A stretch of 64,000 nt of DNA from Hypomyces perniciosus (lineage: Eukaryota > Ascomycota > Sordariomycetes > Hypocreales > Hypocreaceae). Of the stretch, positions 3,219 through 60,664 are shown one piece after another. The notes under the pieces are model-generated. The model had not been told where the DNA came from. It worked only from the letters and a program-made list of their open reading frames with translations, and did no database searches. The DNA lies in contig SPDT01000009.1 in assembly GCA_008477525.1 (NCBI GenBank), positions 806,001 to 870,000 on the forward strand. The letters run 5' to 3'. A program made the position numbers and the translations under genes. Position 1 is the stretch's first letter. Each line of letters starts with the position of its first letter.

Positions 3219-3914
3219 TGTTGGATTTTCGTCAGGATCTTGAAGAAGATCGTCGGCCGCACGGAAGAATGCGACTTGGAGAATATGTCAGAAGCAGCTT
3301 GGAACGCCCGAGTGCATGAAGTTTTGCTGGACTTTGTCTTTTAATGCTTCGCTGGCTCAGTACGACATTGGGATGTGACTCCTGCACCTATTAACAAGTC
3401 CTATTTACCACGCCATAGCACTGGTGCTGATATACATTCTAAGATGGTTGACTTTTGTCCGACCCTTGCTGGGGATGATATTACTACTACGCAAAGGCGA
3501 CTCAAGACTGTCAATGACTTTGACTCTATCAACCATACATCTTATCAATCCATCCGAGACCGACCTATCGCCGTAAGCATTGGGACAAAAACGCCCGAGG
3601 GATCGAACCAGGGGGCTAAGGCGCAACTATCGGTCTGGACCACTGCACATCTCAAGTGTCTGCGGTCATTGGCGGGGATATCACGAAGTCCGCTAGTGGT
3701 CGACATTACGCTTCCTGTTATTTCCATCCGCAATGGGGACTGGTCTCTGTCATTTGTGAGGGATCAAGCAGAAAGCGTGGACCTGATTGAGACATTTTCG
3801 ATTGGGAGTACAAAGTCTCTTGTCGGGTGCTACAAGGTTGTTGCGTTCTTAAGGCATTTGGGTATTTGGGTGCAGGCTGGGATAGGATTGCAAGAGGAAT
3901 TTCTGGCTGGTTGA
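3219..3914 (+). pseudogene. Relic of fungal PD-(D/E)XK nuclease-like protein (PDDEXK_12 type)
   Basis: The reading frame around 3243-3914 matches the C-terminal domain of a large fungal family annotated as PD-(D/E)XK nuclease-like. Signature stretches in order are ECDLENMSEAAWNARVHEVL, SKMVDFCPTL, SYQSIRDRPIAVSIGTK, AKAQLSVWTTAHLKCLRSL, and a C-terminal IGSTKSLVGCYKVVAFLRHL. Two lesions are visible: an in-frame TAA at 3342-3344 between the first and second blocks, and Gly in place of the Glu usually found in the SIETK motif, which is expected to be part of the catalytic E-x-K. An open frame from 3375 gives 179 aa but lacks the upstream helices. The upstream start is not identifiable. The family's biological role is poorly known; the assignment is from motif memory, the lesions are seen directly. 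Confidence 0.7.
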
Positions 3915-5879: not shown

Positions 5880-5887
5880 GGCAGACT
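5880..5887. repeat. 8-bp target-site duplication, left of hAT copy A
   Basis: GGCAGACT lies directly outside the left end of the transposon and is repeated perfectly at 9306-9313. An 8-bp duplication is the hAT superfamily hallmark. Confidence 0.93.
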
Positions 5888-5907
5888 CAGGGTGGCGATC
5901 CATTCCA
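5888..5907 (+). repeat. Left terminal inverted repeat, hAT copy A
   Basis: Begins CAGGGTGGCGATCC; pairs with 9286-9305 with one mismatch at position 5. The CAG start is common in hAT ends. Confidence 0.9.
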
Positions 5908-6623
5908 CGTCCATTTCCACGGGCGTCCATTTATGGAAATGGATGGCCCGTGCATCCATTTCCATCCATTCCATCGCGCCTGCCATTACATAATCCATCC
6001 ATCCACGGAAGGGTCCCGTGGATGGAAATGGAAGCAGGGGGGCGCTTAATCATCACCCTAAAATAGTATACTTACCATTGCCCAAGTCAGTGACATCATT
6101 ACCAGAGACTCCGTGCTTGTTCTACCTGACCCTCCGCCAACATACCCTATATATCATTGGAAGAGTAGGTAAACGAAACTAAATCTATATGCATTTAATA
6201 TATAGCTATATAGAGAGAAATGAATCTTATTATATATATTTTAGTATATTGCTAGAAAGGCCAACTCTATTCCAATTATAATAAATATCTTTTTTAAAAA
6301 CTGTATTTATGTACTCCGTAATAACTGTCAGGTTTTCGCATCAAGTTAAGCTATAAAAATACCTGCATCACTTAGCCTAGTATAAAACTAGAGGGACGCT
6401 AAACTTAAGTCACCACTAACAAATCACTATACATTTTGCTCTTACATATGTTAGTAGTGATTATGGAAGATTTTTTTTTTTTGGTAGCCAGGAGCGTGGA
6501 GATTTCGCGTTCTTAGTTACCGCGTTCAGGCGCGTTGAACTTCTATTAGGAGAAAGGGTTTTATGTACTTCGTATATGAATTTTTTATTAATGGAATCGC
6601 CATAAGCATAATTTATTAACCCT

Positions 6624-8963
6624 ATGCATCCTCAGATACAGGCCCAGGAGGACCAGGAGAACCTGTGGGACCTTTTCCCTTGGAAATACTTCCCTGGGTA
6701 TACTCAATCCCAGCGTTGCGCATCCATATCGTCATGGATATGGCAATTCGGTTACGATATCGAGAAGAGCGACGATGATACAAAGCGGCGATGGGTTTGC
6801 AAGGTCTGCGTAAAGAGTAGTAAGCAAAAACCTCACTCGACTGCCTCGAATGGCACACAGAACGCAGAGATCCACCTCTGGACCGACCACAGCATCTGGG
6901 ATCCTTCAGGCAGGCGGAAGCCGCCAAGTAAAGCAAAAGAGAATACGTCATCAAGGAATATCGCCGAGATGATGAAGCTGAACACATATAACTCGCGAGA
7001 ACAGCAGATTGCCAACCAGATCATCGGCCGTTTTGATCGATTAGCCTTCCAGCGCTTGGTAGTCTGTTGGATCATCAACAGTAATTCCTCCTTCCGACAA
7101 AGCGAAGATCCGTACCTCCGCGCAGTTTTCGAGTACCTCAATCCCCTCGTGAAGACGACCGAGGCACATATCACCCACGATACCGTTCGCAGACGCATCC
7201 TTAAGGTGTACGAAGAAAACATAGAGGAAATAAAGCGAGTGTTGGCGGCAGCCCCAGGGCTGATTCACATAGCGTTCGATGGCTGGAGGTCGAATAATCG
7301 CCATGCTCTATATGGAATCGTTTGCTATTTTCTTGATACCGTTGGCCAGCCACAAAAACTTGTCCTTGGACTTCCAGAGCTTGTCGATCGTCATTCTGGG
7401 GAGAATATTGCTGCTCATGTTGTCGATATCCTTCGGAGCTATGATATAACCCAGAAGGTCGGATACTTTACACTTGATAACGCCAGCAACAACGATACAG
7501 CGATGAAGGAAATCGGAAAAGCGCTGGGCTTTAAGGGAGAAACCCGGCGATTACGCTGCTTTGGCCATATCCTTAATCTTGCTGTTAAAGCGCTGCTTTT
7601 TGGCCATGACTCTGAGGCATTTGAGGATGATATCCTTGGAAATGAGGCGCTTAATGCGAAGGCCCATGAGATGTGGAGACGGAAAGGCCCTATTGGGAAA
7701 CTCCATAACCTTGTCGTTTGGATTCATCGTTCAGACTTACTAACTAATCTCCTTCGGTCTCTTCAGTTGGTCGCGTTCGAGAAGTCTGAGGATCCGACAA
7801 TACAAGCGAAAAAGCCTCTAGATGTCATTACTGATGTGGTAACTCGTTGGCTTTCTACTCTTTACATGATCCGACGCGCTCTTCTCCTGAAGGACTTCCT
7901 TGAAGAACTCTGGTATAGGCAGAAAAACGAGTGGGAAGGGTCAATTTTAAGGGGAAAGAAGTCGAGGAGTGAAATGCCACTTTGTCTCAGGGATGACAAC
8001 AAACTCGATGAGAAGGATTGGAATATTATCGCTCTTTTTAACGAGGTCCTCCAACATTTTGAGCATGTTTTAATTACCCTTGAAGGTGACGGTCGACAGC
8101 GGATGCGAAAGTATGGCTATACTAAAGCATATGGATGCTCTTGGGATCTTATGTTTGGCTACGAGTACCTGCTTAATAAAATGGAGGTATATAAGGCCGC
8201 TGCTCATCGATATCCCGACCCTGAGCACTTCAAGGTCAATATTAATCTCTGCTGGAAGAAACTTGATGAGTACTACTCGCGGCTTGATGAGACACCGGTC
8301 TATTATGCAGCTGTCGCGCTTCATCCAGCATATCGTTGGGGATACTTTGAGGACATATGGGCAGATCGCCCAGAATGGATCCAGACTGCAAAGTCCCTTG
8401 TGGAGGGGCTGTATAGGTCTCAATACGATCCGCAGGTCGTTTCTCGAGACCGAGAACCGGTTATGAAGAAGCAGCGAACTTATCGAAATCCCTTCAACGA
8501 GTACTGCGAGGAGTCTCGTCAGGCGCCGGCATTATTACAGTCGCCATTCACTCCTGCTTCGTCAGCTGTGGGAGATGAATATAACGATTGGTTTCGAGAC
8601 GTACATAAATCGGATCAGAGGATCCTGGATCCCATCAGCTATTGGTGCGACAGACGGGAGGAATATCCTCGCCTATCACGGATGGCCCTTGATGTTCTTT
8701 CTACTCTTCCAATGTCTGCTGACGTTGAGAGACTTTTCTCTACGGCCGGCAGAATGGTTCGAGATGACCGGGCAAATCTGGATGCTAGTACAATTGGAAT
8801 GACGCAGACGGTGAGATCGTGGCTTCGTGGGGGATATATTCGAAGTGTGGAGAAGCTTCTTGAAGAGGTTGAGTTATCGGATACCGATCCGCTTGCCGAA
8901 CTGAGCTTTATAGAAGCTCGTGAAGTAACAGGTGGGCGAATTGTATGTACTATCCCTCTCTAG
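6624..8963 (+). CDS. hAT-family transposase, 779 aa
   Basis: This enzyme cuts and rejoins the element. The N-terminus (about residues 20-95) has an atypical BED-like zinc-binding region: WVCKVC followed by a spaced HLWTDH. The central part carries RNase H-fold hAT landmarks: FDGWRSNNRHALYG (first catalytic Asp region), FTLDNASNND and LRCFGHILNLAVKALL. The C-terminal dimerisation block is classical: DPISYWCDRREEYPRLSRMA, then LSTLPMSADVERLFSTAGR. There are no stops, frameshifts or introns. The first ATG lies after an AT-rich leader and fits the usual 650-800 aa length. Compared with the copies at 45222 and 48099 it differs at one residue (Arg for Leu in the GETRRLRC motif) plus two silent sites. 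It could be active. Confidence 0.95.
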   Translation: MHPQIQAQEDQENLWDLFPWKYFPGYTQSQRCASISSWIWQFGYDIEKSDDDTKRRWVCKVCVKSSKQKPHSTASNGTQNAEIHLWTDHSIWDPSGRRKPPSKAKENTSSRNIAEMMKLNTYNSREQQIANQIIGRFDRLAFQRLVVCWIINSNSSFRQSEDPYLRAVFEYLNPLVKTTEAHITHDTVRRRILKVYEENIEEIKRVLAAAPGLIHIAFDGWRSNNRHALYGIVCYFLDTVGQPQKLVLGLPELVDRHSGENIAAHVVDILRSYDITQKVGYFTLDNASNNDTAMKEIGKALGFKGETRRLRCFGHILNLAVKALLFGHDSEAFEDDILGNEALNAKAHEMWRRKGPIGKLHNLVVWIHRSDLLTNLLRSLQLVAFEKSEDPTIQAKKPLDVITDVVTRWLSTLYMIRRALLLKDFLEELWYRQKNEWEGSILRGKKSRSEMPLCLRDDNKLDEKDWNIIALFNEVLQHFEHVLITLEGDGRQRMRKYGYTKAYGCSWDLMFGYEYLLNKMEVYKAAAHRYPDPEHFKVNINLCWKKLDEYYSRLDETPVYYAAVALHPAYRWGYFEDIWADRPEWIQTAKSLVEGLYRSQYDPQVVSRDREPVMKKQRTYRNPFNEYCEESRQAPALLQSPFTPASSAVGDEYNDWFRDVHKSDQRILDPISYWCDRREEYPRLSRMALDVLSTLPMSADVERLFSTAGRMVRDDRANLDASTIGMTQTVRSWLRGGYIRSVEKLLEEVELSDTDPLAELSFIEAREVTGGRIVCTIPL

Positions 8964-9285
8964 ACTTTATTTATAGCGCACTGGCTAGAGCCTGGGCTCA
9001 TTAAGAAAGTGCTTGTTTTAATTATGTATAATAAGAGAGATATCCTGTATAATGAATTTTGTTGCTTGGTGATCATTGAGATGGTTACAGTGACTGTGGT
9101 GAGTACTATATATAGTAACTAATCTATTAGCGCGATACCTTTCCTATTTAGGTAACCCCATCCACGCATCCATTTCCATTTCCATCCATTCCATGCGACT
9201 GCTCTGGGCGTCCATTCCACCCATTCCACTGCACGTTGACTGAAATGGACGTCCATCCACTCAGCTAAGGCTGCGTGGATGGAAA

Positions 9286-9305
9286 TGGAATGGATCGCCA
9301 GCCTG
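9286..9305 (-). repeat. Right terminal inverted repeat, hAT copy A
   Basis: Reads inward as CAGGCTGGCGATCC. It is the only right terminus of this element family left in the window, because both other copies lost theirs. Confidence 0.9.
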
Positions 9306-9313
9306 GGCAGACT
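9306..9313. repeat. 8-bp target-site duplication, right of hAT copy A
   Basis: GGCAGACT, identical to 5880-5887. Confidence 0.93.
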
Positions 9314-11207
9314 TCCGGCAATGGAAAAGGCGGCTGGTTGAGCTACAGCTTCCAGCTCCGTGTAAGAGAATTTACTTTCCGACAGCGAGCTTAACTCAGA
9401 AAGGCTCTCAATTGAAAAATTGTAATTGGCCAGAGTGACAATATGATAATTCAAGCCTAACTCCCACAACCATGGGAAGCTAACTGGGGAACATCTACGA
9501 GGTACCTCCTCGCATTCCGTCATACATGGGAGAGATGAGAATTGTATCAACAGAATAGTCACTAAATTTCTGACCTACCGACGGACACGCCCGCAGACAT
9601 CTCGGGGCACGGCTCTCCATGTCCCCCCGGAAAGCATCAAGTGGCTCCAGAGAAGCGTGGGAGGGTATCCAATATCCTTGGCGCGAAGCTCCATTCACAT
9701 GCAACTTAGATTGTGGCAGCCAACTCATGGCTCAAGGAGAGGCATCATATGTGGACTGAGCAAGTTAGGGTTTAAGCTAGGTCGAACCCGGTGTTGGAGA
9801 GAGGCTGACACCACTCTTGTCTGTCCCGTGCAGGAGATTGCAAAGCCCCCAACATGGGCGGGGCTGGGGGAGACTGGTGTTGTCCCCCTCGTGTCGTTGA
9901 GCTGGTGGTGGTGGTGGTGGTTTTACACAACATACTGGGCGAGCAGACAGAATATCCTGGTTGCATATTGCACGGGATCAACGGCAAAGCTAATGTATGC
10001 AGACGGAACCCCAGTGAGTTCAAGTCAGGATCTACTTCTCTCTTTTTTGTGTGTGTGCGTATGCGAGAGAGAGTTGGTTTGGTATGTACTTCGTACTCCG
10101 TACTTCGATTTCCAATTTCCTTTGGGGTGCGACTGAGTTGGGTGATTAAAGAAAGGCAACTAGCGCTAATGCGGGGACGTTGGAACACGACGTAACGTAT
10201 GCCCATCAATACCCGTAAGCTTGCAAGGCGGCTTCCTTTGGAAGACCATGGGCATTCGAGTACTTCCGGCTTGGCACTTGGCGGGTACTGCAGTTCGAAG
10301 CACACCACAAGGCAGGGATGTCCTTGCTAGTAGGGCGCACAGAACATCCTGTTCAAGGGTGTCGTTTGTACTCTCTAACAGCCAATGTGCAAGGTCCAAA
10401 GCACCAGTTCTCCGTCCGCCATCGCTTGTGCAGGTACCCTGCTAATTACACCCCAGGTACGTACCGATTACTATGCACACACCTCCCCGGTGTGGGATTG
10501 GAGAACATGGGCCACTACAATCCCGATCTAGATTGACACTGGGTCCTCCCGTTCCCTCCAATCAGAGGCCCTTCAAGCCAAACCACGTCTCCTTGTTCGA
10601 TTTGGTAACAAGGCGGCCGAGATTCAGCATTGCCCTGGTTTCGGGCGATCTCAACTTTGAAAGTTGTTGGTATTCGTCCCCACCTAACGATGCTTTCCCA
10701 TTTGCTTCTACAAATGGCCACTACCCTGACTTCTAATTTTACCACTCACACGTTTATATCCCCAGGTACCATGCTATTCTATCATTCGAACTCTAAGTAA
10801 TACATGGGAACGTACCTTGGTTGCCTTTCCCCCGCGCACATTCCGATACTTAGGCGCCCAAGTCTTCTCCATTCTCTGTTACGCTGTATCGAGCCCTGCA
10901 ATTTGCGAAATCACGTCACTTCTTGGGTCTCTTTTAGCTGGTGAGCGGAGCACCTAGTATTCACTCTGCCGCACCACGCAGTGGTGAGACCCCAAGCAGC
11001 ACCCATGGGTCAATACTGATGCAGTACTAGTAAATGTCAAACACGAAACAAGGTGCTATTACCCCCAAGCGAAAGTGACTCGAAAACGGGAAGGAATACG
11101 CCGAGAAGACAGAACTCCGGGCCTAAGCCTGGAGAGCGGGATGGGGAAACGCCCGTTCTAATACAATTTCAAACATCCAAAGACCTCAAACACGCCATAC
11201 AGGAGAG
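9314..11207. other. Long intergenic stretch upstream of the SET-domain gene
   Basis: Overlapping open frames on both strands (9657-10136 plus, 9772-10308 minus and others) have no family I recognise. A (GTG)n microsatellite sits near 9903-9922, a GT/GA-rich run near 10046-10072, and a TACTTCGTACTCCGTA cluster at 10085-10107. This region presumably holds the promoter of the next gene. Confidence 0.4.
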
Positions 11208-14200
11208 ATGTCGTATAGCTGCGACCTATGCAGACACAGGTTCTCGAGTGAGACGGAATCCAAAGAGTTACTTGCTGACCATAAGTGCAATGTCCACTAC
11301 GTATGTATGGCGCTTAGTGGGACAAAGTTTGAATGCTGACATTTTTAGGAATGTACCCAATGTGCGAATTACTTCGATCCCAGCTCATCTTCCTTCGAAA
11401 CCAGTTTTAAACTGCGAATACACCTAAGACATCACCATAGAGCGCAGGTAAACGCAGGAAACTACCCCTGGTCTAATGACGAAGACAATGCTTTTCTGGG
11501 TCAGGCTGAGGGCTTGACTGAAGAAACCGTCCTGGGCCATTTTCCCGGCCGCACCCTTGAACAGGTTCAGGAGCGTTTGCAACACCTGACAGAATACTCG
11601 GATCAGGAGCCAGTTTCATCCTCTTTGGCAAGTTCGCAGGCCGAACATTTTTCATTCGAACATGACGAACAACCCCGGGAGTTTATCTGCAGCCAATGCA
11701 ACACAGGGTTCAAATGTGAGGATTACCTCGAGATACACCGCAATAATGTTGAAAATTGTCGAAACGCAATGTCCGATGCACGGTTCAGAAAGTGGCCGGG
11801 AAGCTCCACATCAAACGTGACGGAGGGTAGCAAGTATCTTCATGGGTCGAGGAGTTGCTCTCCTGCCATATTAGACGGCGCGTCTTCGACGGACTGCGTT
11901 CACTATGAGCAAGATACATCTGCCATGGCCGCACTGCCGAGTGTCGTCCGGGATGGCAGTTTCCGGGCAGGTATGACGAGCACGCCTAATGATCAGGCAG
12001 CATCTGCAACGGAGTTAAATATAGGGTCCCAAAGCGCCACCACCACCTTGACGACGCACATGACGACACCCCATAAGGAGGCTGGATGCCACGCACCCGC
12101 GTTCAGGCTTCAGAATGCATCGCCCACTATATTTGTTGATGGAAGCAACCTCGAATACTTGGCCAGCCAAGCTTTGGATTTAGTACAATGCTCAAGCAAT
12201 CCATCTGCGACAGTAACTCGGCTGGAGGAGGGGAAACCACTTTTCGACGACGATATTGCGAAGTGTTTGGAATTCCACGATCGTAATTGCGCACAGGACT
12301 GGAGGTGGTTTTATCCTGGATACCCTAACAATAGTAGGGGCAAATTGACACGGCCCGAGTCTCTCAAGTCAAATCTTCTCTTCATCCTAAACATCAGCGA
12401 GCACTGGGTAGTGGTCCATCTCAATCACAGAGAGGGTTTCTGCAAACTCTATGACTCTGCTGCCACAACGGCCTATCGCCTGCCCGAGGTCAATGAAATT
12501 ATCAAAGGATGGCTCGAGATCCAAGGGTTCAACACAGAGGTAAAATCCTCCCAAAAGGTAAGCCAACCCATGAAATTACCAGTCCCCTTTTCTTGTCTCA
12601 TGTCGACATAGGAATGCCCACAACAAAACGACTCTGTCAACTGTGGGGTCTTTTGTTTAGCAATTGCTGCCGCACTCTTGACGGGTGAGTCAGTTCCCAC
12701 AAGCGTGGACCCCAAAAAAGCTCGAGAGCACTATGCCAGTCTGCTAAGCGGGTCCTCTCCCACACCGTCAGATCATCCATCTTTGACAGACAGCAGTGTT
12801 GAGAATATAGACGATGACGTCGCCTCTATCTGCAGTCCCTCACAGCATGCAACGCCACCTTCTTCCTCCTACATGACAGAGCGCCAGCTTGGAGTGATCA
12901 GCACCTGTAAGGCGCAGACGACTTCCACAACTGAATGGACTATTGAAAAAATCGCTAGCCGGCTGAGGGCCTTTAGTCAGGACGTCGGGGACGGCCACGC
13001 CCAACTTGTTGCATATGTCATCGAATCTACAAAGCCCGTTGAGCGACGCATCTTCCATGGCGATGATCTCTTTGCAGGTGTCAAAATTGATCAGATCCCA
13101 GAAAATAAGGGCCAAACAATGAGTGTCAAGTTAAAGGTGAGCCTCTCCCTCCTGTTAACATATCATTGCTTTCAATTAATAATGGTGCAAAGCAACACTT
13201 AAAGACCGAGAAGGATCACATAGAGGAGCATTACATGGCAGTTTGTATCAAGACAAACAAGGACGCCGTTCCTTCCTACCGCTTTCATCATGTGGAAATA
13301 AAAAAGAATATCCTAACGCCAAACACAATGCTGACTTTTATGCCTCATCTCCGGGATCTCAAGAGCTCCGAGGAGCCTACGTACAGTCGGTGGCTCAAGG
13401 AACTGAAGAATATCGATCTCAAGTCCGGGTTTAAGCAAATGAATTGCGAAGAAAAGCATACCCGCACTACCCAGTCGGAACGTGCTACGACTATTTCGCT
13501 TTACCTCGACTCCTGGCTTGATGCTCTTAATATGCCCCATTGCAACAAGCTCACGCTTATCAGATACATGGCCAGTCTGACTCCGCAACAAAAAACGGAT
13601 ATAATCGAATGGCACAGTGATGGTAACGACATGACAGCCGAGGCCCGAAATGCAGCAGAAATGTTTACAGCTGCTTTTCAACTCGTCTTCGAACAAGACC
13701 GGCCAGTCTCGAAGCAAGTCGATCTGCGGAAAGTCTTACTCCTGGATGAGTCTGTTAACGGTATTATGGAGAACACGTCAGCGGTCAAGGAGATTTTCAA
13801 TCCTAAGCATGACAATGAGGATGTCGTGGCTGAGTCCAATCTGGCTACATATGGCATCTTTGGATGCCTGATATGCTTCAGCCATTCTTGTGATCACGGG
13901 GAATATGATAACAAGAATTCGAAACGCACTTTCTCACTGTTGTCTCACTTCGAACTTTCAGACGTGTTGAAGAAGAAAAGAGCTGGTACAGCGGTCACGA
14001 ATGGCATAACTGAGACGAAGTGTCGGCGAAGATGTCATCGCCTCGGCGCATCTTCGAATTGGGACGCACAATCAAGACAATGGTCTGATGATGAGCGCAT
14101 TTTCTTGCGATCTCTGTTCATCGCTGTAAATCATAGCACGGCCAAGATGGACCCGATATGTCTTGCTGCGGAATTCTTGAATCGCAACTGCTGCGAAGTG

Positions 14201-15241
14201 TACGCCGAATTCCAATCACTAGGCATTTCAATACCCGAACCAAAACCAGCAGAGTCTGTTCGCCCCAGAAATATACAATGGTACGATCATCGCAAAAAAA
14301 TGCTTCAGGGCGATTGGCAAGAACGCACGGTCAGTCATGAGCACCAGCGGAGGGAAATCTTGGAGCCCTGTTTCCATGATGGCCCCTGTGCGCCGAAGGT
14401 GTGTGGTTGTGTGGATGCTGGAGTTCTCTGCGAAAAGTTCTGCGGTTGCACTGTGCAGAGCTGCTCCTACAAATTCACGGGTTGCGCGTGTCATGCGCAA
14501 GGTAGGACGTGCTACACGAAGCAGAAGGATAAACCGTGTATATGTGTGCAACTGAATCGCGAATGCGACCCACAACTCTGTGGCTCATGTGGTGCCCTGG
14601 AACGTGCTGACCCTGCTAATGCAGATAATCACTGGCTGCATTCCACAGGCTGTCAAAACTGTGAACTGCAACGTGGAGTCCATAAAAGTCTCCTTCTTGG
14701 CCAGAGTCAACTCGACGGAGTTGGCTACGGGCTCTTCACAGCCGAGGATATTGCCCTAGACGAGTTCATTATCGAGTATGTGGGAGAGCTTATCACACAT
14801 GACGAAGGCGTGCGTCGCGAAGCGAGGCGAAGCGATGTGTTCGATAAGGAATCCAATAACTCATATCTATTTACTCTTCTTGAGAACGAGGGAATTTGGA
14901 TCGATGCAGCCATCTATGGCAACCTGAGCCGCTATATCAACCATGCGTCAGAGCATGACACTTGCGGATGCAACATTACCCCACGGATCCTCTATGTCAA
15001 TGGAGAATATCGAATCAAGTTCATAGCGTTAAGAGACATCAAGGCTGGAGAAGAGCTATTCTTCGACTACGGCGAGAATTTCCCGAATCTCACAAAGAAA
15101 CCAGAGGCGACAAATGGCAAGCGGCGTCCACGGCTCGTGAAGGCAGATGACCAAGCGGCAAGGGTGGTGGAACCACGTAAGAAGCGGGGACAGAGCATGC
15201 GGGACCTAAAGCAGCTACACAAGAGACAAAGGATCACATAG
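11208..15241 (+). CDS. C2H2 / Ulp1-type protease / E(z)-like SET methyltransferase fusion, about 1291 aa
   Basis: There are four exons: 11208-11300, 11349-12557, 12612-13136 and 13193-15241. The 48-56 bp introns have GT-AG ends and all junctions fall between codons. Domains in order: two C2H2-like pairs (residues 4-60, YSCDLCRHRF and ECTQCANYF); a Myb/SANT-like segment (YPWSNDEDNAFL); another finger (FICSQCNTGF); and a C48 peptidase core. The core has His383 (EHWVVVH), Asp400 (LYDSA), Gln439 and Cys445 (QQNDSVNCGVF). The His-Asp spacing of 17 and Gln-Cys spacing of 6 match yeast Ulp1. After it come a CxxC/HxC block near 830, a second SANT (WSDDERIFLRSL, about 905-955), a CXC cysteine cluster (about 1000-1080) and a C-terminal SET domain (about 1115-1235). 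SET landmarks GYGLFTAEDI, EYVGELI, YINHA and ELFFDYG are present; NHA replaces the usual NHS. Predicted role: nuclear SUMO/ubiquitin-like deconjugation joined to histone H3K27-type methylation. Domain calls come from motifs; the biochemistry is inference. Confidence 0.85.
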
Positions 15242-16204
15242 AGCAGAGCCGTCTAATACCTCATCGACAAAAAATCGCAGCCAACCAGGTGCGCGAGGTA
15301 AACATACCGGAGGGCCTCTGGACTGTAGACGGTTTACACGATCGATGCTTAAGATTTAAGGCAGAGCCATTACGGAGGAACTGGGCAGGCGGTGATGAAC
15401 GAAATCCGAAATTTCGCAGGCCGAATATCAAGGAGAATCGTATTGCTCAGTTCAAAGGGGATCGACTGCTTGTCCATATCTTCTAACCCTACCTTGGAAT
15501 CACTTCTACATCCTATAACAGTGCTTGTATTATGTCGTGATACTGTCAGGAGCAAGCCGGAGGGCTACGAAAGCAACGCCCGCACAGCGGGGGAGACTCT
15601 AAGGAAGAGTGCCCGCACTGAAGGAAGGCTACGGGGGAAGGAAGCCGACTTTCGGAGTATAGGGACTATAATAGGGGCCCTTTCCACCTAGGAGGAAGGG
15701 GCAGAGATCAATACAGTCACTGCCTATGTGCCCACTTCGTACCTCTAGCTCTCCGACTCTATCACTCTCTTCCTGTGACCAGCCACTCTTGACAGATACC
15801 ATATTACCTCGAATGGATGCTCTGTTGATTATCTCGCAGCGGTGTCGTGTCATGGTCTAACCGTTGCCTCCGTTACAACGAATTTGAGCCCACTATTTTG
15901 GACAACAGCTGCTAGCGCGAGGGGAATTTTTACAGGGGAGTTGGCCCTTGGGCTCTATGACCAGGTGCGTTCCCTCACGCTGCTCGTCCGATCGCCAGCT
16001 TGCTTGCTTTCAAGTCAAGAATCGGCTTGAGCCCTTATAGTCCCGGACGCTGTCAGCCACCAAAACGCTTCGGGTGTACCCTCTGGCCGCTTCTTATTAG
16101 CCTCTTCTCCCCTTTCTCCCTCTTGCTTCTCTTACTCTCGTATAACTCACTCGATACTCGTGGCCCCTTGTTAACTCGGCGTACCTGGGAGTCGGCTGTG
16201 CGTT
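15242..16204. other. Intergenic, possible LTR relic
   Basis: No gene is supported. A segment near 15890-15935 (around GCTGCTAGCGCG) closely resembles about 40 bp near 25137-25180, suggesting a shared decayed repeat, perhaps a retroelement LTR. Confidence 0.3.
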
Positions 16205-16738
16205 TTACACCTTGAGGCGTTTCCTTCTCATTCCTGGCCTCTGGCCATTTTGATCCATACCTCTCCGGGCTCCGCATCCTCCTCTCCACCACTTCCCTCC
16301 CTCCCCTGCTGCGTTGAATAGCCGTTCTAGAAATTGATGCCAGATATGACTAACCTCCCGGAAGTTGGCCACCATCTGCGGCTGCAAGTGATTCGGAAAC
16401 CATTCATCGAGCACATAATGACGCTGAGCGTTTGCACTGCCGTGTGTAGACTGCAAATCAAAGACGTAACTGAATCTCCTGCCATCCTGCGCCTCGCCAG
16501 TAGCACCGTCCTCATACAACCTATCGTATGTCAAATTTCTTCCTTCTTTCATTGCTTCATTCCGGCTTGACTTCTAATAGAGCTATCACGAATTCAACAC
16601 ATCTAATTTATCAAGGGTAACTGAACCCATCCCCCAATCTGCTATTTTAATGAGAACCGGATTCGGTTCATCGTCGGTATCTGGACAAGCCAGATACTCA
16701 ACAAAGGTCACGAAGTCTGTTCTATTGGTTAGTTTCAT
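16205..16738 (-). pseudogene. Decayed coding pieces, one protein-kinase-like
   Basis: A 51-codon minus-strand frame at 16586-16738 reads like coding sequence and contains EPNPVLIKIADWGMG. This resembles the beta-8/DFG region of a protein kinase (IKIxDFG), with DWG in place of DFG. A second frame, 16205-16552, continues downstream without a known motif (FSYVFDLQSTHGSANAQRHY). No complete catalytic domain can be assembled in the neighbourhood: there is no glycine loop or HRD motif. I therefore treat these as pieces of a broken or strongly diverged gene. The kinase reading is a weak inference from one motif. Confidence 0.3.
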
Positions 16739-17515
16739 GTCAAACCTATAATGGATCTACAACCACTTATCCAAGTTATTTTATCCGTGATGGGTAATTA
16801 CGGCTATTCCATTCAGTCAGAACGGCTAATAGCTAGTTTTTCATGTATTTATGTCGCGTAAGGTATATAAGTTCATTTAAGCTACTACTGGCGATGGCAT
16901 CGTTGAGCTGTGAAGGAGTGGTGGTGTAGATGGTGGCCAGAGGCTTTGCGGTGCTCTCCCATCGGTCTGAATAAATTTAAAGAAACTTTATATATTTATT
17001 ACTAATACAAAGGCTATTTATTTATAGATTACTTACAACACGGAAGACCAACCCCCTGATCCTATTACTGCTGGTGCTTGCTCTTTAATATCAGGCATTA
17101 GCAGTATTGGAATGACCATAGCCGAAATGCCGGTCGACTTTATCAAAAATAGACAACACTCCGTGAATGAACGTTTGTCATTACGAGACAGTTCTAGTAA
17201 AACTGCTGGTCGGAAGTTGATGCTTGATTCGTTCGTCCTACACATCTATCATAACGTCATTGACAGGGCCGAGTGCTACGTTGGGCTTTGGGCGGACGCC
17301 TTGGGAGCAGTAGACCTACACTTTTGCGGTAGCGGTAAACTTGGCAATTTAAGCAGCAGTTTTCCCCACCTAACTTAGGATCAGCAAGAGTATCGAATTC
17401 CATCGTTTTCTCGTCATTCAATGATCCCTCATACCGTTGATCTGTGATTGATACTTCATTTAGTTAAGTGCCGTGTTTCCTATTTCACTTAGTAACGAGA
17501 AGACTTCCTATTCAC

Positions 17516-18260
17516 TCATTGGTCATCTATGGCCCCCAAACTGCTGTTAATCATTGATATTGTCAGATAACGGGCGACGATGATTCGATGGAGAGTAAAA
17601 GAGCCTGGAGAAATAACTGGCACGGGGTAAGCTCGTGTCACGCAAGAGAATTGAAGCCTATTGGTAGATGGGTGACTGTATTCATATCTGCCATTCTTTG
17701 AAGGAACATGCTGTATTTTATATACCCGTTCATACACAGACCCCTTACTACTTCGTCGCCAGATGCGGGTAGTGCTACCTTTTCCCTAATGCGTACAAAG
17801 TGTCTCCATTCCGGATGTGTATAGAGAAACGGGTCTTTAGGTTGCTCTTCTTTGTCTCCTGATAGGCATCATATTGTTGACACTCATAAATGAATGTTGG
17901 CGGGGCATTTAAGATTGTTGAAGCCTTCAATTTGTATCCTGAATACCTTGAATAAGCTCAAGGCACATCAACTTGCAGCCGTTGTCTGAAACGCACCTAG
18001 CAATCATGGACGCGTCATGAGGCTAGCGAACGACCATTATTGTCGATATTTGATTTATTAGGTTGAGGTCGCTCATCAGTATTCGGGGAAAGAACTGTGG
18101 CTTCCGTGAAATATCCCGTCGGCAACGTTTGGTCGGGAATCTCATCTAAAAGAGACATACTTTCCGCCCAATACAGTGTCACCGCATCATACTGGTTACT
18201 ATTATGGTCTGGTATGGGCGTAAGCGTTGGAGTTGCTGGTGGAGACGGTAATTTCGACAT
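17516..18260 (-). pseudogene. Unrecognised multi-exon gene or relic
   Basis: On the minus strand an 81-codon frame starts at 18260 (MSKLPSPPATPTLTPIP, a Pro/Thr-rich N-terminus). Further down, a stretch around 17640-17860 encodes DPFLYTHPEWRHFVRIRE and continues for about 70 residues to a stop. A third frame, 17516-17737, overlaps it. Possible splice signals join the first two (for example CTATCAG before the second stretch), but I could not find a consistent set of phases for the whole. It may be an intact gene with several small introns, or a relic. No family is recognised. Confidence 0.3.
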
Positions 18261-18770
18261 GGTATGATGTGTTTGTCGCTGGCGTTGAGGATGAAAATTT
18301 TTAAGGACCTTAATGCGCCTTTCTCGTGCAACTATTCTTGAAAGTTAGTAGGAGATAAAGTACAGCTGAACGATTGCTTAAAAGGGTCGAAGTGCAAGAC
18401 GCTCTCTTTAAATATCCTACTACATACAACCAATTAGTATTTTCGCCAAGTACATAAAATAATGTCCAAGTACGGCTTTATAAGAACTACGTGCCCAGCT
18501 CCATGCCTTAATGAACTCTTAACTGAATTGTACATACATAGACTTTGGACTATGTAACTCATTTTTCAAAGAGTTCATATGCATCCAGCAACATTGAAAT
18601 TGATACAGTAGAGGCCGAAATGAGTGTCTGCATTTTGTATGTATAGAAAGTTTCAGGGCACAGACCATGCCTCTGGTTTCTGTAGTCGATACTTCTATGA
18701 ACACAGCCTAACCGTGCTTTGTTAATGTTTACCTAACATTACATAAGAACAATTTCGCCATTGCTATACA

Positions 18771-19069
18771 GAGGGGAACGGCAAGAAACTGCCGAAAGTC
18801 GCTCTAGGCTCTTTATCAATAGAAAAACCTTTAGATCCAGAAGTGCTGTGTTTTAAAGTTGCTGTTCCTGAATTTTAAGAATAAGAAGGATCAAAATCCC
18901 AATTTACAACATTAAAATGCCACAAATGGCTTATGTTAGGCTAATGTTAGAGAACCACCTGCCAGGCTTTATTGTCTAGTAGTGGCTACAACAGCCCGCA
19001 GTCTGGTCCGTGCCCAGAGAGTTTCTAAATACGTAAATGGCGGACACTGGTTTCGGCCGCCACTGTACA
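18771..19069 (+). repeat. 299-bp dispersed repeat, copy 1
   Basis: This segment matches 51175-51473 over its full 299 bp with roughly 20 substitutions and no length change. It begins GAGGGGAACGGCAAG and ends CACTGTACA, directly before a (TACA)n microsatellite at 19065-19090. It is too short and ORF-poor for a gene; it might be a SINE, a MITE or part of a longer decayed repeat. A small hairpin (CGGCAAGAAACTGCCG) lies near its start. Confidence 0.8.
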
Positions 19070-20540
19070 TACATACATACATACATACATATTCATGATA
19101 CGACATATGTACAAGCAATGGCCGACATTAGTGCCAACAAGGGCTATTTTCGGACGAGTGTAGCTTGGTACACTAACATTTTTAATAGAGGCTAAAATTG
19201 GCTTATTCCAACATTCAACACCTGTTCAAGGCACCGTATACTTTTATTTTGCAATTCCACCTCTTAGGATACAATTCCGGCTATTTTCGTGCATCTGCGG
19301 CGCTGTCAAGTGGTCACGTACATACATACCGGTCATATTCATCATACAAATACTTGGTCCTCAGAAGCTTACAAGTATGATTGTGGTACATAATCTTGGT
19401 TACTGCAAATTTCCTGCCGCTTTCTACCGCCTTCCTACTAGGCAGCTGCCCACTTTCCATCTGCTGCTGCTTTAGGGATTTCTATAAGAATGCTTACTTC
19501 TTCCCTTTCCATCTCTCTATCCCTTGACGCGTCTCTTCGACCTTATAATTCGCCTCATCCGGCTCAATACTCTTAACAATCTTATCCACTCCCCTGCCTC
19601 CGCCCCATCACACGGCCCTTCTCCTAGACGATTTGACTAGCTCTACCGGCTACCTCTGCTATACCGTTTCCCTTTTATCTCTGCTGATAATAATGTTTTC
19701 CCGTCTATCCTTTGTCTCGAACAGATGAACTATATACTGCAATTGCCCGGTTCCAACATCTCCCTGCGCATAAAGCAATGTGCAAAAAAGGATGATGGTT
19801 ATAGCAATGCTAGGTAATCATTCGCCCCCTTGACTCTTGGCTATGGCTCACCAATTTTCCAACGTAGCAAGGTAGCTGAACCCACACCATGCCCGTAAAG
19901 GATCGTCTCGGTGTACACGATGAGGAGCAACAGTGAGAATACTACAGTGATTGAATGGCTGGAACTCCATGGATTGGACGATGGAACCGCATTGGTCTTC
20001 TGACAGAAGTACCACCGGCGTAGGTCCGCAACCTGCGACCACCTTTACCACGAGACATGGGCTATCTACGCGCTCATTCGTCGCCGGTGCCTTTATTTGC
20101 CGTCTAGGCAGACACGTGTCATATCATGGAGTCAGAAGACCTCGAGGGTGGCGTACGGGATGAGTCCATGATTCTCGGATCCAAGGCTTTCCGCGCCACG
20201 ACTCGTACCTCAAGGTCTTGCCATTGGTTAGGGTAAGGTATTGCGACGACAAATGGGCTCAATTTGCCGCTGGGCATAATTCTGTCCGATCCGCGTAACT
20301 TCCGATTACGGCTGATTGCATAGCAGAGCCTACTGGAGACGGAAAGGGAAACAGGATTCACGGATGACAGGGAAAGACACAGGAATTGAGACGGGGCAGA
20401 GTAGCAAGGGGCAAGTGGGACAGGGAACAGCAGTACGGCGCGGGCTCTCCTATTGACAATATGCCCCAAGGGATTATTACGTATGGGGTGAGGAGTATGC
20501 CAAAGCTGGTCGGCAAGGCGTCCACTCTGTCAGAATTGAA
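19070..20540. other. Intergenic, microsatellite at left edge
   Basis: (TACA)n/(CATA)n repeats lie at about 19065-19092 and again near 19317-19330. No gene is supported between here and the C2H2 gene. Confidence 0.4.
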
Positions 20541-35652: not shown

Positions 35653-38600
35653 CTACAAGCGATGGGGTAATTCCTCTTGCACCAAATGCGCGACGCGCTT
35701 TACAATTCCAAGAACGTGCTGTATTAGGGTCCAGCGCTCAGGACTGAGTTCGATCGGCTTCTGTGTTCCCATTGTGTAGATAAGCTCGAACTTGACATTA
35801 AAATTCTCATCGCTTTCATCGACAAGGTCGCGTGAGCAGGTGTTGAAATAATGCTGCGTCTTGAGGAGAATTTGGCCAACTTCTTCTCGCGGGGCAAGCT
35901 GGTTCTCAATTCCCATGAGTTTAAACGAGAGGAGGTGCTCTGGCTGCATAAGCAGTATTCCACTGTTTTCGGCGCATTCCTTTGAGAGTCTGAGTATTGT
36001 GTGTGCGTCAGAGGTCGTCAGCTTAAGCGATCGGGAAAACGGCATCTCATATATGCGATGGTTCATCAGCCCCCCAAGCTTGGATACTAGGGTTCGACGA
36101 AGCTCCTTTGCTTGGGGCTTGGAAACAATGACGCGAATGAGCCTCTTACCGTCCGCAAGATGCGCCGCTACGATAGGAATAATCACAGAGGATTTGCCCT
36201 CACCCATGTTTAGTTGCATGACAGCGTTTTTGTTCTGCGGCGGCTTTCTCATCTGCGAAGCAATCTGCTCCTGAACTTCCCGAATCATGATGCCGCTTTC
36301 AACCTCTAATAGCAATGATTCGGGGTATTCCAGAGGGTCCCAATTTGTATGACCAGGATTCAACAGCTCCTTGACGAGTTCTATCTCATCACCCCGCTGA
36401 GCGAGCATCCGCTCGGCTCGCTGAACCATAGCAAGAGACTTCGCATACGTAACGATCGCTTTTTTCCACGCCGGGGAAAGATGTTGCCAATGAACTCGAG
36501 TCAGCCGACCAAGGAAGAAGGAAGGGGAGACCCTTGGCGCCATGTATCTCTTTGCAATCGATGTCGCTGAAGACACTGGATCGGTGAGGGGGCTGAAACG
36601 GACCATCTCGTCAAAACCGACTCCTTTTCCTAACAGATGATATATGTTGCCGCTTTTGGTCATACATTCCGATAGATATTGCTCCAGTATCTCAAAAAGA
36701 CTGGTTCCCGTGTGCTTGAGTCGATATGTAGCACTGAGATGTTCTTGAGACTTTTGGCTGCAATCCAACTCTTTCAAGTACTTGCGTTCGAATTCTCGAG
36801 AAGCTTTGTGTTGCAGAACTGCCACGAGCTTACCCAAATCGTCATTTCCTTTTTGTCCAATGGCTTCGGTATCAAGTAGATGAAGGTCAGGTTCAGGCAC
36901 ACCGCTTAATGAAGGCGGAGGATGAGCAAACAAATCCTCGTCATTGATGAACGGCCTTTGACCGACTATGACTTTGGCTGGCAGGAGTGAATAACTTGCA
37001 GGACTGGAAATTTGTCTTACTTTAGCTGAATGAAGAGCACTGGTGACAAATCTTAGGTATTCAAACAGCTGATAATTCTGATACCAGTTTTGCCAAGTCG
37101 GCAAAATATTTTCCATAATGCCGCTTTGATACAAATATTTGTCGGAGTTTTCTCCACTGGGGGTTATCGGTACATTACAAATCCATTGCTTTTGGAGTTG
37201 GTCAATGAAATGGCTGATAGCTGTATGCTGATTGTCTTCGAATTGTCTATAACGTCTTTGTTCCAGTTGCCGGTCACTCTCGTACAGGCGGCGTGGAAGA
37301 GATGTCTCTTGACTATTAGAAAACGGGACTAAGTGGTTTCCGACGGTGGCTTTAAGATAGAAATAGTCGATACTGTAGCCCTTGGAAGTCCGGAACACAT
37401 TCACATTAGGAACTTGAATCCTCCTGACAGCCTCCATATTTGCACATGCCGCAAGTGCTTGAACAGCATCAAGACTGCATTTTTGTGCGTATGCCATTGT
37501 AGCAAGACAGAACATAAGTCGAAAGCGACAAAAATGGACTTTTCCACTGCCTAAAGCTTGGTGAAACCTCCACCAATACTCCGAAAGTACGGATTTCGCA
37601 TCTGATAACCACATGGAGTCGTAGCCAATTTCATCATCGAGCAATGGCATATTTGGACCCTGTGTACCGTCCAGGCTGTTCAACAAATCCCACAACGTTG
37701 TGGAAAGATTATCAGATACAGAGACATGGAGAGTCTCTCTCCTTTCGGCCACCATGGTTGCGATGGCAAATGCGCTTTCGGATCTGTTTAGACGCTTCAT
37801 TCTGTCCCGTGCTTGATAGGTGACGTCGCGAGCAGTGGTATGGCTTTCGGCGCCAAATCCAAAGACGTAAAAGGTAGAAGCCCTGATTTGATGTCGCGCT
37901 TCTAGTGCGTAGTTCACATGTTTTAGTATCGGGTGCTTGATGTAAGAGTCACCATAGAAGAATTTGGTAGCATCAACCCCCTGCAGAATCGATTCCACCG
38001 AAGCATGTAGGTATCCATGCTGCGATAAGAAGCTGAGTTCACTATCCCAGTCGATAGTTTCCATGACATGTTCGTTTTCAGGATAATATGCTCTGGCAGG
38101 GGACAGTCTCGAGATGCGGCTGAGAATAGCAAGGTCTTCCTCCGAAAAATGCTTGAAAGACCGAACTGCTGCGGAATTAAGAATTGATAAACACTCCTCC
38201 GTTCCGGTCTTGAGGGTGAGCTCATCAGGCAAGCAGAATGAAGTGAGCGCATGGAGGTAGGCGAGGGAAAGTCTGCTCGGTGAACTGCCATTATCCACCA
38301 AACGCCCCAGTCTGGTGTCAATATCAAAGGGATGGACCCGATTCGAGCTGCCGTATTCAATTGTAACTTGTACATGCTGTGAGGGGCTCGAGTACCGAAT
38401 ATGACCGTTTGGGACTAGAACTTTCCGGTCATTAAGATCGTCGCACAACGTCAATTTGCTATGCAGTCCGGTCAGAGTTCCAATTCCTTGCCTCTTGTCC
38501 ACATACATGCCACGAAATTGTCGACAGAAGAGCTTAGGCAAGCCAGGTTGTAGGAAGAAGTCTAGACGAAGTCTAGGCAGACTGATGTTGAGCTCGAGCG

Positions 38601-41600
38601 TAGCGTCATCAAGGACCATATGTATGTGACTTCCGTGCTCAAGCGGTCTTAAGATGTTTCAGAGATGCTTAGCAGTAGGACCCGTTGGTCCAAGGAGTGA
38701 TTCTCCTTGCCTTTTGAGCGCCCATAAAGACCCAACTCTCCCCAGAAACCAGTTGTTGGGCGAAGAATGCCAAGGAAATTCCTTGGGCCGGAACTCGACT
38801 TTTCCAGAAAGATGATCGTACCAGTGCACATGATCATGAATGAAGCTTTTGGGTAGGGTCCCCTCGAAGACGCTATGTGGAATCAGGTCCAGCGTATGGA
38901 TTCCTTTGGACGCCACTAGGCGGAGCTCCGTAGAGTTTGGCCAATCAATCCCAAATGAGAGGGTATGCCCATGATAAGTCTTCATTGTAGAAAACTGCAT
39001 CCCAGGGACACTAGCAGGCATGACCTCTATCATTTCTCTTCCAAACAAAGTCTTGAAACTCGGGTGCTTCTCATACACATCCGGTAAGCGAGATGGAGGC
39101 AGGCCGTTCACTAACAGCTCGGCAGTCAAAAGATTAATTTGAATGGTCGAAGCATTCCTGCATTCACTCTCTGCAGTTTTTGTCTCCATCCAGTGATACT
39201 CAGCGCTCGACAATGGTTCCCATGCATTCCCCCCGGCATAAAATGGTAGTACTCTCCTTACAGCAAGGTCAAGACCTTGGTTTCTGGCCTCCAAGACCTC
39301 TCGCAAAAGAATCTGGTGAGATTTGTATAGAACACGTCCCCATTGCAATTTCAGGCCAAGGTGAATTGGGTCGAGACATTCCCCAACGCTGTGTGATAGA
39401 TTCTTGATGATGATTGAGCATTCGACCAAGATGCTGACTTGATCATGATTCGACAGTATACTCTCAAGGTGGGTCTCGTCGACGTCGAAAGAAGCGACAC
39501 AGATGAACGCGATTTGGGACGTAATGCAGAAAAAGTCTGCTCTTTGTTCATCATCCTCTATTGCCAATATCTTGCTTTGTAGCAGATGAATCCAACCAAT
39601 GGCCACCGAACGACATCGTACAAGGAATGAATGGTATGTGAGACACAGTGAAAGGGTTGGAGCCAAGTTCAGGGCTTTGATGGCGATAGCGATGAAACCC
39701 TTTAATGATATATAAGATTCCCAGTTCTTCTCTATTCTCTCCAGTGAGAGAGATAGGCCCTGGAGAAGCTTTTCGACAAATGCCTCCTCGCGGAGGAGTT
39801 GATGACTGGCACGATATACAGAGCCGTCGAGGGGTGGCCCTGCTTGATGAATGATCTGAAGTAACATGAGAACAGTATCTGGCTTGTTAAAGTCGATGGT
39901 TGGTGCAAATAGCTGAACGAGAATATTGGACCACTGTAGGCGGAATCCAATAGGCAGAGAAGCCACAGCCTTGAATTCCTCCAACGAAAGGTTTTCTGGA
40001 CAACAAGATTGTTCAGAAAGGACATGATTTGGGGAGAGGCCGTTCACCTTCCATGGCAGTCGAAAAATGAAGTCTTGAAGGCTTTTATTTCGCTCCGATA
40101 GCTTGTACATGCATGCTCTAGGAATCATTGCTGCTGTTTGGAATTTTGAAACAAAGGTGTCCCTCTGGACGTCGTAGAACCCATAGGTGAGACCGTTCTT
40201 TACTAAAATATCTCCTTCCTTCGCAATGTTGATCATTTTTCCTTTGCGATGTGTGCCGCGATTAGACTTAGTAGTCGAAACAAGCTCCAGCCGTCGCTTA
40301 ACACGATTGTAGTAAGAAGGCAAGTGCGTGCCTAGTTTAGCCACAACATTGTCTCGCCTTTCGGAGTAATGGCACCCCAGGACATCATTTATGATAAATA
40401 CGGTCATGTTCCGCCAGGCATTAAAACAGTAGGGAACTTCCAGCTCGAAAACTGTTGACTGAGCCTTCAGCTTATCGGCTGGGAGAGGCCATTCATGTAC
40501 CTCAATGGTTAGTGAATCGGCTTCGTTGCTAAGCCGACAGCTCATGCAATGTCGGCCATGCCCCTTGCATCGGTATCCTGTCCTCCAATCCGTATATTCA
40601 TAATAGGTGCAGTCAAGCTGATTCGAGCGAGTCTTCAGCTCGTTATATTTCATCTTTAGTCGATAGAATTCTCCCTTCTTCCGCTCCCTCTCTGCAGATG
40701 CAGTAGTCTCAATCTTCCCACGCAACAACTGATGCTTAGTTGACGTGGCGTAATAGCGGTTTGGAAAAGATTGTCTGTGTCCGAAAGAGGAGAAGATCGA
40801 GGGGCATCTAGTTTGAGTGCCATCGTATCGAGTCTTGATATACGCCTCGGCTTTAGCCAGTCTTTCCAAATGGCCCTTAGAATGCAGCAGCAAAGATTGC
40901 ATCAGGTCATACGGGACTTCTGGGCAATAATCAGGCAATAGGCTATTGCGTCTACATGCTGACTTATCGCAAGCAACCCACAGTTCCAAGACCGTGATGA
41001 GCGCGACAGATAGACTTTCGGGACACCCCGCGTAGCAGGTTTGTGCTAGGCTGTAATACTTTGTCGTAGCAGTCCACAATTGCTGGCAAGTTTCCTCATC
41101 TGCTAGATTGGACTCAATCCAAATGTCAAGTGACGACTTGACCCATTCCTCAAATTCTGCCAAGTTGAAGAAGATACTCTCGGGATGAATACCTTTCTTC
41201 AAAATCGGGATGCTTGATTTATCGAATTTCACAGCGATCCAAGGTGCTCGGAACTGGGTCACAGTCGGTTTATTGTGTCGAGAACCGATGCTGCGTATGA
41301 ATTCGTCAAGCTTTAGATACGGTTCGAAAATATCACCCAACGAAATCGGCTCCGACAATAATTGAAAGTCCAAAGACGGATCTGAATTCCGCAAGATGGA
41401 TGCCCAGCGTTCCTCGAGACAAGCCCGAGAGCGTGCCAACGTCTCATTGATGACCTGGAGCCAAGGGTATTCGAGTCCTTCGCGCAACTTCTTGAGTCGC
41501 CTTGCTAGTTTGGCAGCAATGCAATAAAGAATGTCACTTGGAAACCTCTGTTGCTGTGCAACCTCCAGAATACACCCCATGAGATATATCATGAACTCTT

Positions 41601-42513
41601 TGTAGAGTGGCCGATCCAAGTCGAGGCGGTCGAAATGTATTTGGAGCGTCACCCGAATAAGAAGCCAGACAGAAGATCTTCGCCAGGGCAGTTTCGCATT
41701 TTGCCAGAGGACTTCCTCACGAGTGTTCTTCCATATGCTATGAGTCTGTGTGGCCTCTCCAACGGCGTGAAGGACGTTGTAAAGGTAGTCGGAGACTAGG
41801 AAAGGATCCGTGGTGTCCCTTTCCTCGATATGGGCTTCGCCTTTCTTCATCACCTTCGGTTTTGCCTCCGCCACTTCCTGGTGACTCATTTTTGCAATGG
41901 TATGTGCCAAAGCTGCCCTGAGCCCGTCCTGGGCATAATTCTCAAGGGGAATCGAGATGGATGAGGCAGGAAAGCATCGCCGAAGCCGCCCTTCCGTACC
42001 TATAACCGCTTCATTCTTGGGAGACAACTCGAATGATTCGAGAAGGACAGATTTCGTTTCTCGCGACAGCATCATGCCAGCATTCTGGGCATTGATGTTT
42101 ATGGGGAAAAAGCCGTCTGATGAAAAGTTAGAGATGAAAGTCCTACGGGCAAGCCTCATACATAGACAGGAAAACATACCATTTTTGGTTAAATGACCGA
42201 GAATATTAGCAAGCTCTTGTTCGTTAACAAACCCTGAGTTATCTCTTATATTCTTATAGCGCCTCATGGCCAGCTGAGCTGATTTGATCGTCTTATAATA
42301 GGCGGGGCTGACGTAGGCCAAAAAATTACCAAGCGCCTCGATAGCCATACCTAAAAGAGCAGTCTCATGAGAAGTACTTTCCGGGTCATCCCCATTCTGA
42401 GGGAGCTGAGGAGGGAGGAACACATTGTGAATTATAAAGAGAACTGCTCTATCGTTTTCCAAGAAGTCGCTCAGCAAAGCCATGTTTTGCTTTGAGCAGC
42501 AAGTAGAACTCAA
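35653..42513 (-). pseudogene. DUF3638-family giant protein, nonsense-mutated and C-terminally truncated
   Basis: Two long minus-strand frames, 38659-42513 (1284 codons) and 35653-38619 (988 codons), lie in the same phase. They are separated only by one in-frame TGA (38659-38661) and 13 sense codons (NILRPLEHGSHIH), so one nonsense change splits a single gene. The protein belongs to the roughly 3000-residue fungal family with DUF6606, DUF3638 and DUF3645 domains. Recognisable parts are the central RQFRGMYVDKRQGIGTLTGL region and the DUF3638 block QLNMGEGKSSVIIPIVAAHL. That block has a P-loop-like GEGKS, followed by LVDESDENFNVKFELIYTMG. The frame ends soon after, at a TAG, before the expected last several hundred residues including DUF3645. 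The biochemical role of the family is unclear; the ATPase/helicase-like motif is suggestive only. Intact upstream coding of more than 2200 codons suggests recent inactivation. Confidence 0.8.
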
Positions 42514-42620
42514 AGATTTTGGTTGGAATATAGAGGAAAGAGGGGTGGATGGTGACCAATCAGGTGTTTGTCAACTAAGTAGTGTAAGCGAAGTTCTTGC
42601 CATAGCGTAAGTGTTGCTTT

Positions 42621-60644: not shown

Positions 60645-60664
60645 TCTAATACCCCTTCTTTTAT

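Follow-up and report, generated by a model that had tools for sequence, protein, structure and literature searches.

A kmt6 duplicate joined in frame to a C48 protease-like front end on a 1.36-Mb fungal contig with telomere repeats at both ends

A 64-kb window of a fungal genome (G000:C9:806001-870000, from an assembly of 44.0 Mb in 23 contigs) holds a gene in which the sequence of a Ulp1-like C48 protease runs directly into that of a Kmt6/EZH2-type histone methyltransferase. "The window" here means this whole stretch, and positions without a contig name are counted from its first base. When spliced, the four exons of the gene (11208-15241) form a single frame of 1291 codons plus stop. The gene arose by lineage-specific duplication of the standard kmt6 of this genome and lies on a 1.36-Mb mini-chromosome. 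That this duplicate, with its C48 front end in frame, is still an EZH2-type enzyme is the explanation we favor, at about even chances.

The standard kmt6 of the genome lies on another contig (G000:C4:4385481-4387499, minus strand); its reading gives a protein of 1083 aa and a single intron, 56 bp long, at the position of intron 3 in the window gene. It shares 85% identity with exon 4. Similarity between the two proteins extends back to fusion residue 480, which corresponds to canonical residue 70, and a tblastn search with canonical residues 73-130 finds the window copy (E 9e-12). Because the Kmt6 similarity starts at residue 480, the joint is placed within exon 3, at about 12744 and at the end of C48, with neither an intron nor a stop between the two parts. 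This in-frame joint is almost certainly real DNA. A preliminary description, made from the sequence alone, had reported four exons in one frame with residues H383, D400, Q439 and C445, all of which were borne out by splicing and translation. However, it had placed a 56-bp intron (13137-13192) between the two halves, and this intron is instead located inside EZH2_N, with standard kmt6 containing the same one. The concern raised there that two genes had been wrongly merged is weakened, because the joint lies within one open exon that contains no stop.

At the C-terminal side, clear similarity between the copies ends at about canonical residue 867 of 1083. Downstream of 15241 the whole stretch scores 34.7 against the kmt6 3' tail at the DNA level, where the maximum of 100 shuffles is 29.4. 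Without its first 150 bases the score is 25.8 against a shuffle maximum of 28.1, and a tblastn stretch there has an E value of 0.45. Beyond this, the surroundings of the canonical locus (two segments, 17.5 kb) have no DNA in common with the window at E 0.001. The window copy is like standard fungal Kmt6 in the EZH2_N-MCSS-CXC-SET order, the 56-bp intron, the NHA motif and the 85% amino acid identity, yet it differs in that the C48 front end stands in place of the first ~70 residues, the C-terminal tail is lacking and evolution is faster. A direct repeat of 18 nt, with one mismatch, is present at 13211-13228 (the start of exon 4) and at 15229-15246 (the region of the stop codon), and standard kmt6 differs at the first of these sites.

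Among the best 120 of 441 homologues, all carry EZH2_N and SET and none carries PF02902 according to precomputed domains; the best-scoring named sequences belong to Cladobotryum, Trichoderma and Metarhizium. Within these searches no homologue with both halves was found, the search with residues 1-490 being empty as well, which is an absence that the preliminary description had named as counting against a fusion. A quick tree (LG+G4), built from 38 of the 120 homologues and both of the genome's own copies, makes the two copies sisters (Shimodaira-Hasegawa-like approximate likelihood ratio test, SH-aLRT, 99) within a group of 13 rows that also holds Cladobotryum mycophilum and Trichoderma. Nine Fusarium rows form a separate group (SH-aLRT 100) to which the window copy does not belong. 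A phylogeny of the SET part had been proposed as a check, and the window copy does group within Kmt6, in a tree composed only of Kmt6 rows, other SET families being compared by scores. The canonical kmt6 adjoins a Bap31 gene, and a Trichoderma gene model (P0105) merges kmt6 with Bap31. Where the preliminary description had thought of a Eurotiales setting, the kmt6 relatives and the Bap31 neighbor place the genome in Hypocreales, on the Cladobotryum/Trichoderma side, a placement that rests on kmt6 and its neighbor.

All six Pfam domains of the spliced protein, C48 and five of EZH2 type, exceed their curated cut-offs, and the E(z)/Kmt6 set of EZH2_N, MCSS, CXC and SET is present in order. Exon 4 aligns over 632 residues (666 bits) with the EZH2 part of the solved Polycomb repressive complex 2 (PRC2) 5bjs, which is presumably fungal. 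Among the best 60 of 111 sequences, EZH1/EZH2 chains score 132-666 bits against exon 4 and the next SET family, EHMT1, scores 63 bits; by these scores the enzyme half of the window gene has its nearest relatives in E(z) and not in another SET family. A SANT-CXC-SET tail in EZH2 order had been described. The order of the enzyme held up, though Kmt6 similarity begins at about residue 480, so that most of the enzyme is present and not just its tail. An alanine in place of the NHS serine had been taken as the lone catalytic exception. It is the normal residue of fungal Kmt6 and represents no loss, because it is invariant across the 34 aligned rows. The enzyme had also been called free-standing, which is unlikely given that all EZH2 Pfam domains are kept and that the genome has a SUZ12 gene on contig C8 (VEFS box 30.4 bits; PRC2 chains that are EZH2-SUZ12 chimeras align with this stretch at their end).

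Comparison of the two copies shows the Kmt6 half to be under purifying selection. Over 701 codons the synonymous divergence (dS) is 0.425 and the nonsynonymous divergence (dN) 0.075, giving a pairwise dN/dS of 0.176 (bootstrap 0.132-0.227). By region the ratio is 0.068 in CXC, 0.078 in SET and 0.30 in region 265-410, and differences at codon positions 1, 2 and 3 number 65, 47 and 152. Of 164 positions at which the outgroup rows do not vary (25 or more of the 38 filled), the fusion retains 159 and the standard copy all 164. Neutral simulations with 0.2 changes per site introduced 10.7 stops on average, and none of 400 runs was stop-free. From dN/dS, the kept positions and the intact frame as compared with simulation, we conclude that selection maintained the Kmt6 half through much of its past, under relaxed constraint.

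The front end matches Peptidase_C48 (PF02902) in the spliced protein at 28.3 bits, over a curated cut-off of 20.7, and the codons of its catalytic residues start at 12402 (His), 12453 (Asp), 12624 (Gln) and 12642 (Cys), so the profile check that the preliminary description had suggested came out in its favor. Intron 2 is supported because the separate exons score only 15.8 and 11.7 bits; if this intron is left unspliced, its acceptor TAG is the sole in-frame stop. The His-Asp-Gln-Cys order is shared with the Ulp1/SENP C48 proteases, and the spacings of 17 (H-D) and 6 (Q-C) are those that we take yeast Ulp1 to have. Unlike those proteases, the window C48 is weakly similar, matches the profile in part and is joined to a methyltransferase. 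C2H2 fingers had been described further upstream. The three CxxC-led motifs do exist, with mostly irregular spacing, but no Pfam finger domain matches the spliced protein at E<=1, and a Myb/SANT-like stretch in exon 2 stays below cut-off (E 0.16).

The genome contains six PF02902 matches, five besides that of the window gene, and derivation of the N-terminal half from these other C48 genes was rejected, no relation having been found at the protein level. Two of the C48 open reading frames (ORFs), L004 and L005 on contigs C22 and C8, form a pair of near-copies, of which one is interrupted by a stop in frame, and beside one of them is an ORF that on reading alone resembles a transposase. From this arrangement, C48 domains may ride mobile elements in this genome.

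Table 1. Positions of the fused gene, its parts and the adjacent transposon within the window
Feature	Position	Strand	Remarks
Exon 1	11208..11300	+	Residues 1-31; first CxxC motif at residue 5
Intron 1	11301..11348	+	48 bp
Exon 2	11349..12557	+	Residues 32-434; CxxC motifs at residues 33 and 145; weak Myb/SANT-like stretch; start of C48 with H383 and D400
Peptidase_C48 match	12372..12701	+	Residues 373-464; spans intron 2
Intron 2	12558..12611	+	54 bp; within C48 core
Exon 3	12612..13136	+	Residues 435-609; end of C48 (Gln, Cys), fusion joint and start of Kmt6, all in one open frame
Approximate fusion joint	12744..12749	+	Residues 479/480, about residue 70 of standard Kmt6; from protein alignment and tblastn
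DNA-similar stretch against standard kmt6	12899..15101	+	86.6%, intron included
EZH2_N	13116..13408	+	Residues 603-681; spans intron 3; 119.9 bits
Intron 3	13137..13192	+	56 bp; ancestral kmt6 intron
Exon 4	13193..15241	+	Residues 610-1291 and stop
Ezh2_MCSS_fung	13829..13981	+	Residues 822-872; 83 bits
Ezh2-like fungal preSET CXC	14273..14413	+	Residues 970-1016; 86.4 bits
preSET_CXC	14480..14596	+	Residues 1039-1077; 28.1 bits
SET	14723..15073	+	Residues 1120-1236; 76.6 bits
Divergent short C-terminus	15102..15241	+	Long tail of standard Kmt6 missing
hAT transposon	5887..9295	+	783-aa transposase ORF; neighbor, outside the gene

Several observations weigh against a functional fusion enzyme. 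The C48 match covers only profile positions 85-190 of 217, and the best solved structures for the N-terminal half, Ulp1-like SUMO proteases, agree with the C48 match but have E values of 0.07 and 0.64, neither being significant. AlphaFold models were too poor for use, with a predicted local distance difference test score (pLDDT) of 34 for exon 2, run without relatives, and of 49 for exon 4, run with 34 rows. No relatives of the N-terminal half were found at E<=0.001 among a set of 5.8 billion proteins, whether residues 1-490 were searched in full-length context (7987 candidates scored) or residues 1-479 alone (7995 candidates scored); distant relatives would be missed because the method requires shared 5-residue words. 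Against its own genome this half matches itself alone, and among viral contigs it has no relative. Its codon score of 0.111 bits in frame surpasses the maximum of 48 control frames (0.075) by a modest margin and is equaled on the reverse strand (0.110), so it lends coding of this part weak support. All three introns have GT-AG borders and preserve the frame. However, reading of intron 2 reveals no clean match to YTRAY, the branch-site consensus, and the branch site of intron 3 is weak, with TTAAT where the standard copy has CTAAT. The five changed sites among the outgroup-invariant positions also count here, as does the rate of evolution. Of the 105 amino acid differences between the copies, polarised with nine near relatives as reference, 54 fell on the fusion branch and 13 on the canonical branch, 38 being left unassigned (binomial p 4e-7 for 54 against 13). 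As a rough estimate, and assuming equal dS on both branches, dN/dS on the fusion branch is near 0.3.

The strongest rival is that a separate Kmt6 is translated from an internal start (Met522, Met604 or Met624), the upstream C48 gene having merely lost its stop and the joint being read-through DNA. In-frame methionines do occur just past the joint, and the selection that was seen is on the Kmt6 part. In addition, accessory Kmt6 copies of Fusarium are functional according to the accessible text of PMC12774646, and the two that were scanned are without C48. Yet there is no stop or intergenic remnant at the joint, and the C48 cysteine and the beginning of the Kmt6 similarity are both found in exon 3. 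Met604 and Met624 are themselves inside EZH2_N, leaving only Met522 ahead of that domain. We consider an internal start unlikely, and one protein is probably made from the fused frame.

Alternatively, the fusion might be a relic, a chance product once tolerated and now decaying in the way of duplicates on repeat-rich chromosomes. The roughly fourfold excess of polarised protein changes on its branch, the altered invariant positions and the lost C-terminal tail are all in keeping with decay, and a recent loss of function could be hidden, with 25% of neutral runs (400 for each rate) stop-free at 0.02 changes per site, 3.5% at 0.05 and 0.75% at 0.1. However, the entire 1291-codon frame is intact, the low dN/dS of CXC and SET does not suit a relic, and at the higher rate of 0.2 no simulated frame survived; we judge decay to be quite improbable. 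An assembly chimera or wrong gene model is very improbable, for although the fused form occurs in one genome only and merged kmt6 models such as P0105 occur elsewhere, the joint is in frame within an exon and the window copy is no misplaced piece of the genome's own kmt6, because 12.6% of their bases differ.

As to how the fused enzyme might have arisen and work, we propose that a lineage-specific kmt6 duplicate landed on the mini-chromosome, where its first ~70 codons would have been swapped in frame for a front end with zinc-finger-like, SANT-like and C48 parts and its C-terminal tail lost. A PRC2-type methyltransferase is the most likely product, because the gene retains the EZH2 Pfam domains and the genome supplies SUZ12; the product would join a SUZ12-containing PRC2 and methylate lysine 27 of histone H3 (H3K27), like the accessory Kmt6b/c of Fusarium. 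Whether the methyltransferase half is active we put at even chances. The CxxC and SANT-like motifs, both weak, could target the protein to DNA or chromatin. SUMO acts on Polycomb proteins, and the front end could possibly cut SUMO or a related modifier, though activity of the protease half is rather doubtful.

Other routes to the duplicate were considered and rejected. A retrocopy is ruled out because intron 3 is kept. Repeat-induced point mutation (RIP) between the copies is not apparent, the substitutions being symmetrical (C>T 51, T>C 48, G>A 53, A>G 52). Nor was there a sign of transposon capture, as the repeats found within 9296-18700 are all short, no longer than 19 nt if direct and with arms of at most 21 nt if inverted, and the neighboring hAT element (5887-9295) stops before the gene. 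The longest run of identity between the copies, 80 nt, exceeds the 49 nt that permutations average (p 0.01), which is suggestive of gene conversion but only that.

Contig C9 is 1,362,776 bp long with TTAGGG arrays at both ends; C8 (4.19 Mb) likewise has arrays at both ends, and C4, with the canonical gene, is 6.94 Mb. Among non-self matches to window positions 15110-19000 (40 of 286 candidates scored), 52 of 72 are on C9, which makes up 3% of the assembly. The GC content of five C9 pieces (33 kb) is 0.358-0.488, compared with 0.495 and 0.510 in two pieces beside the canonical gene. Only one of the 14 SET domains of the genome is on C9, that of the window gene, and none of the eight histone-fold matches is. 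The preliminary description had offered accessory DNA as a setting, and this suits a contig that is small, runs from telomere to telomere and has most of its shared repeats within itself; C9 would then be a dispensable chromosome, which is the part we infer.

Three hAT elements of the window (at 5887-9295 and within 44486-51174), with a transposase ORF of 783 aa, are 99.9% identical, two of them forming an inverted pair. The last ~306 bases of the element have at least 39 further matches in the genome at 99-100% identity, of which 4 of 39 are on C9 (40 of 54 candidates scored), so the element is not specific to that contig. From these sequences it looks like a recent burst with no visible RIP. 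Diverged collinear copies (79-84%) of 15544-17453 and 18604-19071 are found at C9:400039-400728 and just past it, and 18604-19071 belongs to a repeat family concentrated on C9. A PDDEXK_12 nuclease-like ORF (141 bits) is located at 3345-3911, and adjacent long ORFs matching DUF6606 and DUF3638 at 35656-42570 on the minus strand are probably one large gene. At 54511-55866 is a NACHT-like ORF of 452 aa with an NPHP3_N match and a TANC1-like winged-helix match just under cut-off. Toward the window end (58000-64000) GC drops from 0.47 to 0.26, and this AT-rich block is possibly centromeric or an old repeat.

Extra kmt6 genes have been described in Hypocreales before. According to the accessible text of PMC12774646, Fusarium oxysporum Fol 4287 has two of them (Kmt6b and Kmt6c) on accessory chromosome 3, Kmt6b maintains subtelomeric H3K27me3 once the core gene is deleted, and more homologues occur in other Fusarium species. 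As far as its authors know, functional histone modifiers had not been shown on accessory chromosomes before; they also refer to an accessory chromosome of Metarhizium that has genes for histones and histone modifiers. The supernumerary genome of F. poae is described as a refuge for gene duplications in what is accessible of PMC4994206. The window gene is like Kmt6b/c as an extra kmt6 copy on a possibly non-core chromosome, yet it differs in being of separate origin, sister to its own genome's kmt6. The word 'fusion' is absent from the main text of PMC12774646, and no C48 fusion is found in the accessible text of either paper; two Fusarium copies (P0082 and P0110), which by their names and the tree would belong to Kmt6b/c, have no C48 match at E<=0.001. 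No printed report of a C48-Kmt6 fusion was found in open-licence PubMed Central, judged from titles and the starts of abstracts. Since extra Kmt6 on accessory chromosomes is known in Fusarium, the setting is a known one and the protease fusion is what appears to be new.

The gene is an extra EZH2 copy of independent derivation, found outside Fusarium on a fungal chromosome that is small and possibly non-core. PMC12774646, in its accessible part, raises the possibility that chromosomes of this type bring along chromatin writers of their own, which can now be tested in a second lineage. Were the joined protein produced, deconjugation and Polycomb methylation would be naturally linked within a single chain.

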